Assembly: GCA_019748195.1 (NCBI GenBank)
Contig: JAIEPW010000052.1
Span: 1 to 64,000 of the forward strand
Reading direction: 5' to 3'
Origin: Bryobacteraceae bacterium
GTDB taxonomy: Bacteria > Acidobacteriota > Terriglobia > Bryobacterales > Bryobacteraceae
DNA: 64,000 bases
Made by a program: the position numbers and the translations under genes. Below, piece by piece: positions 60,360-63,565 of the stretch. Position 1 is the first letter of the stretch. Each line of letters starts with the position of its first letter. Below the pieces are notes generated by a model, which had not been told where the DNA came from, made no database searches, and saw only the letters and a list, made by a program, of their open reading frames with translations.

Positions 60360-60776
60360 CTACTTCGGCGCGAGCTCCGTGGCCGGCCAGCGGACGCGAT
60401 ACGCCGGCTCGCCCTGCTCGGGAAGCAGGTCGTAGACGCCTCCCAGGCTGGGCCGGCCGCTCTGCCCGCCCAGGAATTCGACGGTGCGCGCCGAGACGCG
60501 GCCTTCCTGGCGCTTGCCGCCGCGCGTCCAGACCCAGGTTCCGGATTCCAGGCGCGTGGGGACGCCCGTCCGGAAGCGGAGTGTCAGCGCGAGCTCCCCG
60601 TCGGCGCCGGTGAACTCCGCCGCCGCATGCACCACTTCTCCATCGCGCACGCCGCTGAGTTGTTTCAGCGAATACCCCGGCGCCGGCGGAGATCCGCCAA
60701 GCTGCTCGATGCTCATTTCCGGGCCGCGGGAGCAGCCCGCCGCCAGCAGGCAAAACCAAACCGGATATCGGGTCAC
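60360..60776 (-). CDS. Putative lipoprotein
   Basis: A short leader with lipobox (CLLAAGCSRG, Cys near 15) followed by about 120 residues of beta structure (ELALTLRFRTGVPTRLESGTW). No known family. It is 14 bases upstream of the aminotransferase start and shares its direction. Its start faces the divergent small coiled-coil gene across 22 bases. Confidence 0.65.
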   Translation of the reverse strand: MTRYPVWFCLLAAGCSRGPEMSIEQLGGSPPAPGYSLKQLSGVRDGEVVHAAAEFTGADGELALTLRFRTGVPTRLESGTWVWTRGGKRQEGRVSARTVEFLGGQSGRPSLGGVYDLLPEQGEPAYRVRWPATELAPK

Positions 60777-60798
60777 TCGAACATCCTATAATCAGGGC

Positions 60799-61059
60799 AT
60801 GGCCCGAGGTTGGGAAAGCAAATCCGTCGAGAACCAGCAGGAGCTGCGTGAAGCCGCGCGGGAGGAAGCCGCGGCGGCCAAACTGCAGACCCGCGAGGAC
60901 TCCGACCGGCAGCGCAAGCGGGAGAGCCTGGAATCGAGCCGCAAACGAGTGCTTCACGACATCGAAAACGCGAAGAATCCCCGATATAAGCTGGTTCTGG
61001 ATGCGGCCCTGGCGCATCTGGATCAGCAGTTATCGGAGTTGAATGCCGGAAGCTCTTGA
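60799..61059 (+). CDS. Small charged coiled-coil protein
   Basis: An 86-residue protein, nearly all helix and rich in Arg, Glu, Lys and Ala (MARGWESKSVENQQELREA...). A second helix (DIENAKNPRYKLVLDAALAHL) is more regular. ATG at 60799; the frame is open far upstream but composition changes there. It overlaps the start of the DedA-rhodanese gene by 17 bases, so the two are cotranscribed. Function unknown. Confidence 0.65.
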   Translation: MARGWESKSVENQQELREAAREEAAAAKLQTREDSDRQRKRESLESSRKRVLHDIENAKNPRYKLVLDAALAHLDQQLSELNAGSS

Positions 61060-61978
61060 TTTCCTGGTGCGCCACGGCTACACCTGGCTGTTCGTCGTGA
61101 TTTTCGCCGAGCAGCTTGGGTTGCCGCTGCCCGCCGCGCCCGTTTTGTTGGGCATCGGCGCCCTCCTGGGACAAGGCAACCTCACTTTTGCCGGCGCGCT
61201 GCTGATCGCCGCCGCCGCCGCCGGCCTCGCCGATCATGCCTGGTTCCAGTTGGGACGCCGCAAGGGCGGCGCCGCCCTGCGCCTGCTCTGCCGAGTGTCC
61301 CTGGAGCCGGATTCCTGCGTTTCCAACTCGCGCGCCTGGTTTCAAAGGCTGGGGCCCGCCGCGCTTCTGATCGCCAAGTTCATCCCCGGCCTGAACGCGG
61401 TGGCGGTCCCCGTGGCCGGAACCAGCCACATGCCGCTGCCGCGCTTCGCCGCATATCAGGCGGCGGGCACCCTGATCTGGGCCTCCACGCTGATCGGCCT
61501 CGGATACACGTTTCGCCGGCAGTTGAGCCGCCTGGCGGAGCTGGCCTTCCAGGTCTCGAGCTCCGTCGCCGTCGTCGTCGGCGTCCCGCTGGCCGCCTAC
61601 CTTCTGGTGAAGTATCTGCAACGGCGGCGTTTTCTGGCGCGCCTTCGCGGATCGCGGATCCTGCCGGAGGACCTGAAGGCCGGAATGGACGCGGGCGAAA
61701 TGTACTTCATTCTCGACCTTCGCCAGGAACATGAGGTGCGCGACTCTGGCTTCCGGCTGCCCGGCGCGGTGTGGTTCCCCCGCCGCGACATCGAAACCAA
61801 GCCCCACTTGATTCCCAGGGACCGCGACATCGTGGTCTACTGTGCTTGACCCAACGAAGCCACCAGCGCCCGTGCGGCGCTGATTCTGCAGCGATCCGGG
61901 ATCGCCCGCGCGCGTCCGCTCGAAGGCGGCATCGACACCTGGCGCGACCTCGGCTACCCCCTCGAACCCGTGGCCTGA
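61043..61978 (+). CDS. DedA-rhodanese fusion, probable selenoprotein (UGA at codon 269)
   Basis: A DedA/SNARE-associated membrane protein (about 1-200, with FIPGLNAVAVPVAG) fused to a rhodanese domain (about 220-311). The standard frame stops at TGA (61847-61849), but coding continues in the same frame for 42 more codons: PNEATSARAALILQRSG, then RPLEGGIDTWRDLGYPLEP, the full rhodanese C-terminus. The UGA codon is preceded by VVYCA, and the spacing to the following Gly (17 residues) matches catalytic Cys to Gly in ordinary rhodaneses, so it replaces the active-site Cys. A stem-loop fit for a bacterial SECIS follows. If UGA is not decoded, the product is a 268-residue DedA with a broken rhodanese. 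The second TGA is at 61976. Confidence 0.75.
61864..61882 (+). promoter_or_regulatory. Candidate bacterial SECIS stem-loop
   Basis: CAGCGCC and GGCGCTG form a perfect 7-bp stem around loop CGTGC. The loop starts 21 bases after the UGA, within the 16-37 base window described for bacterial SECIS elements, and a G is the second loop base, as expected for SelB binding. It lies inside the coding sequence, where bacterial SECIS elements are found. Confidence 0.6.
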
Positions 61979-61981
61979 GCC

Positions 61982-63565
61982 TTACGGCCGCACGCCCTCG
62001 ATGTTCAGCCTCATGCGGTACAACGCGCCGCGGGCGCACAGATACAGCGTCCGGCCGTCGTCCCCCCAGGCGAAATTGTGCGGATGCTTGGGCGGAATGA
62101 TGGTCCCCAGGTGCTTGCCCTGGGGCGACAGGATCCACAATCCGCCTGGTCCGGAAACGTACACGTGGCCGCGCTGGTCCACCTTCACGCCGTCGATCGC
62201 GTCTTCGCCCGGAGCGGACGTCATGTCGAAGAACCGCTTGCCGTCGCGGACCGAGCCGTCGGCCAGCACTTCATAGCGCATCACCACCTTCTTCTTCTCG
62301 TCCCAGTTGCCCACGTAGAGATACTTCTCGTCCGGGGATAATGCGATCCCGTTGGGCCCGGCGAACTCAGTGGACAGCAGCTTCAGTGCTCCGTTTCGCG
62401 CCGCGTACACGCCGCTGAAGGCGAGCTGCTTGCGCGGATCGTCGCCGAACTTCGGCAGCCCGAACGGCGGGTCGGTGAAGAACAGCGTGCCGTCGCTCCG
62501 GTACACCAGATCGTTGGGGCTGTTCAATCGCTTGCCTTCGTATGCCGCGGCCAGCTCGGTGACGCTGCCGTCTTTTTCCAGGCGCGCCACGCGCCGGTTG
62601 CCGTGCTCATTGATGGTCAGGCGGCCCTGGGGATCGAGCGTGAGCCCGTTCGAGCCCGGCTGCTTGTACTCGGCGATGTCCGCCCCCGCGTAGCCGCCCG
62701 GCTTGCGGAACACGCTCAACTCGCCCGCGCCCTCTTTCGGGAGAAACTTATAAATGGTGTTCGCGTTAGGATCGCTGAACAGCAGATAGCCCCCGTCGCG
62801 AACCCATACCGGACCCTCGGTGAACTGGAAGCCTTCGGCCAGCTTGTAGATCTTGGGATTCGCGGGCACGATGGCATCCAATGCGGGATCCACCCGCCGA
62901 ACTTCGACGTTCACTTCCGCCGCCGGGATGGCCACCGGACCCGGCGGCTCCTCAATAAACTCCAGCTTCGCCGAGCGCATGAAAATGTAGTTGGTCGGCG
63001 GGTTCGACACCGGCCCGTTGATGCCGAAGATCGCCAGTTGAATGGTCTGACCCGGCTGAACTGCGCGGCCGATCACCAGGCGGTTCACCGCGTTCCAACC
63101 GGCGATCACGCTGCCGCCGGATTGGCCGGAAGCTCGCGTCAGCTCTCCGTCCACCCAAATCTCCGCGTAATCGTCGAGCGAGGTTTCAAACACCGCGGTC
63201 CGCCCGCGCAGGTCCACTCCGGCGACGCGCTCCGGCACGGTGAGCCGGATGCGATACCAGTTGAAGCTCAGCCGGCCCGCGCCGCGCCGCGCGCTGAGCG
63301 ATTCCGGCGCGATCGCCGGCCAGGCGGAATCGTCGAACGCCGCTCCGCCCGCGTGCGGCTCAAAGTCGTAGGTCTTGTTGGGCGCGCCGGTCGGCTGGCC
63401 GTCAGGCCCGGCCAAGCGAAAGCCGGTCTCGACGATGCGGGTGTCGCTGTAGCGCCATTGCGCCTGCATCAGCTTGACGCCGCCGGCGGTGGCCAGGTCC
63501 ACCACCGCGCGAGGCAATTCCGCGAATACAGGCGCGGCAATCAGGAACAGCAGAACGTGTTTCAT
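61982..63565 (-). CDS. Exported SMP-30/gluconolactonase-like protein
   Basis: A 527-residue protein: signal peptide, then a galactose-binding-like jelly roll (about 70-210, with VFETSLDDYAEIWVDGEL), and then a six-bladed SMP-30 propeller (about 245-527) with FTEGPVWVRDGGYLLFSD, LNSPNDLVYRSDG, FAGPNGIALSPDE and DAIDGVKVDQRGHVYV supplying the Glu, Asn and Asp metal ligands. It probably hydrolyses a sugar lactone in the periplasm. ATG overlaps the stop of the cupin gene by four bases. Confidence 0.87.
   Translation of the reverse strand: MKHVLLFLIAAPVFAELPRAVVDLATAGGVKLMQAQWRYSDTRIVETGFRLAGPDGQPTGAPNKTYDFEPHAGGAAFDDSAWPAIAPESLSARRGAGRLSFNWYRIRLTVPERVAGVDLRGRTAVFETSLDDYAEIWVDGELTRASGQSGGSVIAGWNAVNRLVIGRAVQPGQTIQLAIFGINGPVSNPPTNYIFMRSAKLEFIEEPPGPVAIPAAEVNVEVRRVDPALDAIVPANPKIYKLAEGFQFTEGPVWVRDGGYLLFSDPNANTIYKFLPKEGAGELSVFRKPGGYAGADIAEYKQPGSNGLTLDPQGRLTINEHGNRRVARLEKDGSVTELAAAYEGKRLNSPNDLVYRSDGTLFFTDPPFGLPKFGDDPRKQLAFSGVYAARNGALKLLSTEFAGPNGIALSPDEKYLYVGNWDEKKKVVMRYEVLADGSVRDGKRFFDMTSAPGEDAIDGVKVDQRGHVYVSGPGGLWILSPQGKHLGTIIPPKHPHNFAWGDDGRTLYLCARGALYRMRLNIEGVRP

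Follow-up and report, generated by a model that had tools for sequence, protein, structure and literature searches.

The window analysed here, a stretch of 64,000 nucleotides from contig JAIEPW010000052.1 of a Bryobacteraceae bacterium (assembly GCA_019748195.1), carries on its forward strand, at positions 61043–61978, a gene for a predicted DedA(VTT)-rhodanese selenoprotein of 311 amino acids, including selenocysteine (Sec) at residue 269. As read from the sequence, GGAG at 61035–61038 on the same strand is the likely ribosome site. The frame that starts with the ATG at 61043 runs for 268 codons to a TGA at 61847–61849 (codon 269), beyond which a further 42 codons are open up to the terminal TGA at 61976–61978. 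The read-through 311-aa protein has two Pfam matches, both above the curated cut-offs: a VTT/DedA membrane domain at residues 30–155 (61130–61507, + strand; PF09335, 49.7 bits), for which AlphaFold2 predicts helices, and a rhodanese domain at residues 208–301 (61664–61945, + strand; PF00581, 40.8 bits). With both domains in a single chain, the protein is a DedA-rhodanese fusion, and since the Rhodanese match spans residue 269, the rhodanese domain continues across the TGA. Coordinates and Pfam thus agree with the initial annotation, according to which the frame stays open for 42 codons beyond the TGA and through the rhodanese C-terminus. The AlphaFold2 model of the 311-aa protein, for which the input was 92 aligned family members (alignment A1) with Sec replaced by Cys, has a mean pLDDT of 92.8 and a pTM of 0.82, with pLDDT values of 91 to 93 in the blocks surrounding residue 269. 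The 50 listed of 269 matches to solved structures are rhodanese-like or rhodanese-domain-containing proteins, as judged from their titles and lengths (a few of these assignments are our own reading).

Upstream, an ORF at 60484–61059 (+ strand) overlaps the start of the DedA-rhodanese gene by 17 bases, and its last 86 codons, counted from an internal ATG, look protein-like. A tblastn search (E 0.01) with this 86-aa frame gave no match in the other 187 homologous loci kept for the comparisons described below, whose flanks are often short, and for these reasons no operon partner is claimed.

Our homologue set comprised 188 full-length DedA-rhodanese genes, of which 108 come from the window's phylum (88 genomes) and 80 are loci of named genome records, all with alignments extending from residue 60 or earlier to residue 290 or later. 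Matches without this span were dropped before counting, and so was L121, which is another copy of the window gene. At column 269, a Cys codon is found in 136 genes, TGA in 45 and other codons in seven (5 Ser, 1 Gly, 1 Arg); it is this exchange between Cys and TGA that underlies the reading of codon 269 (61847–61849, + strand) as selenocysteine, and it answers the question raised in the initial annotation, whether the UGA column is Cys in other members of the family. The aligned codons contain no other in-frame stops, either in the 45 TGA genes or in the 136 Cys genes, so that the random stops in relatives against which the initial annotation had cautioned are missing from the UGA-bearing genes. 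The protein remains conserved downstream of the UGA: mean pairwise identity among the 45 TGA genes is 57% at residues 270–306 versus 39% at residues 206–268, and the corresponding values for the first 60 Cys genes are 66% and 43%. The window protein is only 30 to 51% identical to the products of the other 44 TGA genes, so Sec at this position is an old trait. A FastTree tree, built after masking the trait columns, requires at least 12 changes between Sec and non-Sec to account for the distribution. A second phylum was represented by 398 genomes centred on G066 (the genome of locus L045, titled Proteobacteria). There, DedA-rhodanese was found in 21 of the 398 genomes, with 26 matches; none of the 26 has an in-frame stop, and column 269 is Cys in 25 and Arg in one.

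A bacterial SECIS is a hairpin just downstream of the UGA with a G in its loop. The 7-bp stem with a five-base, G-containing loop that the initial annotation considered to fit SECIS spacing was found as described, at 61864–61882 on the + strand: arms 61864–61870 and 61876–61882 enclose the loop CGUGC (61871–61875), 21 bases separate the UGA from the loop, and the loop starts 22 bases past the A of the UGA. A 35-base stretch containing this SECIS-like hairpin has an energy of −13.6 kcal/mol (z −2.08). Single-sequence folding is nevertheless weak evidence, because the 54-base stretch starting at the UGA has a z of only −0.92 and is not clearly better than shuffles; unlike this, the occurrence of TGA at exactly codon 269 in 45 of the 188 homologues is not a matter of chance. 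When energies were compared with synonymous shuffles, the difference was mild, with a mean z of −0.60 in the TGA genes versus −0.16 in the Cys genes (p 0.03). As the folding-energy tests are weak, the case for the hairpin was built on column conservation and the choice of silent sites.

With the U of the UGA numbered 1, all 45 TGA genes have positions 22–24 paired with 30–32 and a G at position 26, and the same three inner pairs and loop G occur in 11 of the 136 Cys genes (Fisher 1.8e-32, relatedness ignored); a conserved downstream hairpin of the SECIS type thus characterizes the TGA genes. The pair 21–33 is formed in 43 of the 45, including cases in which U-A or G-C replaces the usual C-G, and the outer pairs 20–34 and 19–35 are formed in 82% and only 56%, respectively. 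Silent sites follow the same pattern. Ala276 is encoded by GCC in 44 of 44 TGA genes (mean expectation from their own codon use, ∼0.41) and has the lowest codon entropy of 95 conserved columns in these genes, whereas in the Cys genes it is not unusual. Arg277 is encoded by CGT, CGG or AGG in 43 of 43 TGA genes (expected, 0.37); CGC makes up 53% of the upstream Arg codons in these genes yet is used in none of the 43, and it is found in 15 of the 30 Cys genes with Arg at this position. The codon entropy of Ala279 is far below that of other Ala columns in the TGA genes and ordinary in the Cys genes. Silent sites frozen within the hairpin point to a constraint on the RNA rather than on the protein. 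An Rfam scan of 61700–62000 returned only matches below the gathering scores.

The genome of the window encodes all four of the components, selA, selB, selC and selD, for which the initial annotation had proposed a search and which are expected of a bacterium with selenoproteins. It has a match to the SelA N-domain (33.8 bits, cut-off 22), a tRNA-Sec scoring 72.8 bits (next best match, 45.4), a match to the SelB C-terminal domain ∼2 kb from the tRNA-Sec, and a SelD (369 bits) that itself contains an in-frame TGA within AAG-U-ASK (L142:518–520, contig C106), the established site of Sec in SelD proteins. Within the window's phylum, 41 of the 43 genomes that carry the UGA form have SelB, versus 8 of the 45 that do not carry it (Fisher 1.4e-14); in an even draw of the phylum together with the window's genome, these numbers are 29 of 30 versus 3 of 39. 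The two UGA-form genomes without SelB, G018 and G164, carry strong tRNA-Sec matches (76.8 and 61.2 bits), so that SelB has probably been lost to assembly gaps. In eight SelB-less Cys-form genomes used as a control, the best tRNA-Sec matches scored 41.8 to 51.3 bits, and since four of the eight pass the gathering score of 47 (47.8 to 51.3 bits), that score by itself is no proof of selC. Nor does SelB alone force Sec, as it is present in 12 of the 49 genomes (holding 50 of 80 such loci) with named Cys loci. Genome G037, which holds the TGA fragment L132 and is 81% complete in ∼1030 contigs, has neither SelB nor tRNA-Sec over the cut-off. A tree-aware test of the association between SelB and Sec had three pairs on supported branches and was not significant.

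Canonical rhodaneses have a six-residue active-site loop that begins with the catalytic Cys. In the window protein, the classical active-site Cys is Cys267 (61841–61843, + strand), matched in the 3tp9 alignment by the Cys of VYC; Cys267, part of a YC, is Cys in 188 of 188 homologues. The active-site loop reads C267-A-U269-P-N-E, keeping the Cys and exceeding the loops of the ordinary rhodaneses aligned by about two residues, and the UGA, at +2 from C267, replaces the second Cys of a CxC. With C267 invariant and Sec two residues further on, the motif is CxU, and the classical catalytic Cys is not the residue that Sec replaces. The initial annotation, which had placed the UGA at the catalytic Cys, was therefore right in that the UGA aligns with a Cys of the active site in most homologues (136 of 188) and wrong as to which Cys this is.

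Comparison of sequences across homologues and genomes brings out the apparent Sec/Cys exchange, the conserved hairpin and the Sec machinery, and these three support the initial reading of the gene as a selenoprotein. We consider it very probable, at about 0.88, that the gene encodes a selenoprotein with Sec in a CxU motif. That the TGA is instead a real stop, whether because the sequence is wrong there, because a nonsense mutation arose recently or because the gene is decaying, is extremely improbable: the standard code does end the frame at TGA 61847, the window comes from one draft genome, and the TAG at column 186 of L188 (one of the seven genes with other codons at column 269) indicates that broken copies exist in the DedA-rhodanese family, but the recurrence of TGA at the same codon in 45 of 188 genes, the lack of further stops across the aligned part of either TGA or Cys genes, and the conservation of the downstream protein and of silent sites in the TGA genes all speak against it, and on this comparison all three possibilities were rejected for the window gene.

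The DedA part of the protein contains a CX8C pair formed by Cys83 (61289–61291, + strand; C in 187 of 188 homologues) and Cys92 (61316–61318, + strand; C in 183 of 188), which is found in none of the nine ordinary DedA loci L031–L039. In the set of 188, all 181 genes with Cys or Sec at residue 269 have both C83 and C92, versus two of the other seven (Fisher 1.1e-8), an association that amounts to just two independent contrasts on the tree. In the second phylum, both cysteines are present in 21 of the 26 matches, CxC occurs without the pair in four, and the gene with Arg269 also lacks the pair. Five partial loci that aligned to the DedA part only (L030, L131, L189, L190 and L191) have both Cys83 and Cys92, so that fusions may not be the only proteins with the CX8C pair. 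Ser is found at column 269 in the DedA-rhodanese genes L188, L221, L223, L224 and L133, four of which are also without Cys92. L192 (G373:C4), a DedA relative with no rhodanese match, has His at both the Cys83 and the Cys92 columns, possibly a metal site. Both the C83/C92 segment and the start of the rhodanese are strongly positive (mean net +4.5 and +5.2), which suggests that the two lie on the same side of the membrane, probably the cytoplasmic one.

A working scheme can be drawn from these features. The SelB–tRNA(Sec) system would read the UGA at 61847 as Sec, directed by the hairpin at 61864–61882. The product, 311 residues long, would sit in the inner membrane, with DedA/VTT at its N-terminus and the rhodanese at its C-terminus, probably in the cytoplasm. 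C267 would take a sulfane sulfur or attack a disulfide or persulfide substrate, Sec269 would resolve the C267 intermediate by forming a selenenylsulfide, and re-reduction of the CxU site would fall to the C83/C92 dithiol of the DedA domain or to a thioredoxin. We rate these three catalytic steps as plausible, though at somewhat less than even odds. A protein working in this way would be no undecaprenyl-phosphate flippase but a reductase or relay for thiols and persulfides, anchored in the membrane. The CxU/CxC pair, together with the Cys pair of the membrane domain, suggests thiol/persulfide redox chemistry more than transferase activity. An ordinary rhodanese transfer of sulfur (or selenium) by C267, with Sec269 merely tuning or protecting the persulfide, is a serious contender that we still hold to be the lesser chance. 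It would suit the clear rhodanese fold, seen both in Pfam and in the structure matches, and the invariance of C267, and the sulfur or selenium transferase activity proposed in the initial annotation is possible; it fits less well with the extended active-site loop and with the fact that C/U269 is mostly kept together with the distant CX8C, in 181 of 181 genes of the 188 set and in 21 of 25 of the second phylum.

Four residues, E39, D51, R130 and R136, are named as essential in E. coli DedA proteins in PMC7818093, and R130 and R136 also in PMC10127716; E. coli YghB itself has all four at those numbers. In the window family, the equivalent of E39 is E23 (E in 147 of 188) and that of R130 is K112 (Lys in 186 of 188), whereas the column of D51 holds an acidic residue in 2 of 188 genes and that of R136 holds Arg in none of the 188, leaving the four-residue set of UptA incomplete. 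The window family thus has the VTT fold in common with UptA and with E. coli YghB and YqjA, and mostly keeps two of their four residues (R130 as Lys), but lacks the equivalents of D51 and R136 and has an added CX8C pair and rhodanese. Scores against the curated UptA models stay below the cut-offs (62.5 of 250 bits for NF052604 and 41.7 of 300 bits). It is unlikely, in our view, that the DedA part is still a lipid (undecaprenyl-phosphate) flippase on which the rhodanese acts as a redox or sulfur-sensing switch: the VTT fold, the residual similarity to the UptA model, the retention of E23 and K112, and the placement of rhodanese fusions in COG0586, a putative flippase group according to PMC10127716, would favour such a role, and the near-complete loss of the essential D51 and R136 counts against it. 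The same paper considers it unclear how rhodanese and UndP are connected. Taken together, the CX8C pair and the loss of two of the four flippase residues suggest a membrane thiol/selenol redox enzyme, not a flippase or a plain sulfurtransferase.

The CxU rhodanese is also found on a different membrane protein. L137:172–1881 (G008:C1), from the window's family, joins a Na+/H+ exchanger (PF00999, 150.5 bits) to a rhodanese that contains CAUPNEATSAR, with a SECIS core nearly the same as that of the window gene; judged by its sequence, it is another membrane carrier to which the CxU rhodanese module is attached. More speculatively, and with considerable doubt, the flippase-residue-depleted DedA with CX8C and the CxU rhodanese might together form an undescribed membrane redox system, an inner-membrane selenol-thiol relay whose CxU module also occurs on the exchanger of L137. 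Several simpler loci were met as well. L136:883–1176 (G031) is a stand-alone 98-aa rhodanese with YCNU and, after the UGA, AGCGCCAGGCTGGCGC, a stretch that folds alone no better than shuffles. L138, L139 and L140 are single-domain rhodaneses with an in-frame TGA at the apparent position of the classical catalytic Cys, in the contexts TA-U-N.G.RA and AY-U-RRGGRA, and in each a CGTGC stretch follows further on.

Rhodaneses with a Sec-containing CxU and fusions of DedA with rhodanese have each been published already. NCBIfam NF041203 (rhodanese_LYCAU) appears as 'rhodanese-like form 3, CxU' in a table of PMC13188914, and a CxU rhodanese selenoprotein is also tabulated as COG0607 form 2 in PMC9312934. 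NF041203, with a CxU as in the window protein (C267-A-U269), is the best NCBIfam match of the latter (73.3 bits) and is matched by all 92 members of alignment A1 at E ≤ 0.001. Its model of 126 positions has no membrane domain, unlike the window protein, which falls below the NF041203 cut-off of 115 bits and is related by domain, not counted as a member. Fusions in COG0586, such as P. aeruginosa PA1209 (PMC10127716, PMC12893004, both in excerpt), have the same domain order, as do the 136 Cys genes of the present set, with CxC at the Sec site; unlike for the window gene, the excerpts of these two papers make no mention of Sec. TsoB (NF045694), in the table of PMC13188914 a rhodanese/DsbD fusion-like double selenoprotein, likewise combines, by its name, a rhodanese selenoprotein with a second redox-type part, but has the motif UxxxxU and a different partner, and its model matches just 6 of the 92 A1 members. 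The same table gives rhodanese selenoproteins of form 1 (UxxS) and forms 2 and 4 (UxxG), which are Sec-rhodaneses too, whereas the window protein has CxU with C267; on our reading of the motifs, it is the catalytic Cys that U replaces in forms 1, 2 and 4. Among the papers searched, none joins selenoprotein, rhodanese and DedA, the titles and abstracts listed by related searches describe no such protein, and DedA is absent from the body text of two selenoprotein reviews and the deep-Sep paper; a 2025 paper on novel selenoprotein neighbourhoods may mention one. What is new here is the near-invariant CX8C pair in the DedA part and the loss of two of the four flippase residues.

The window gene adds a membrane-bound architecture to the predicted selenoproteins, one that standard gene prediction would cut short, and many related bacteria share it. 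The 45 Sec and 136 Cys genes constitute a natural Sec/Cys series of a fusion whose rhodanese part is without a known role, and the conserved CX8C pair offers a directly testable idea of what the DedA-rhodanese proteins may do.
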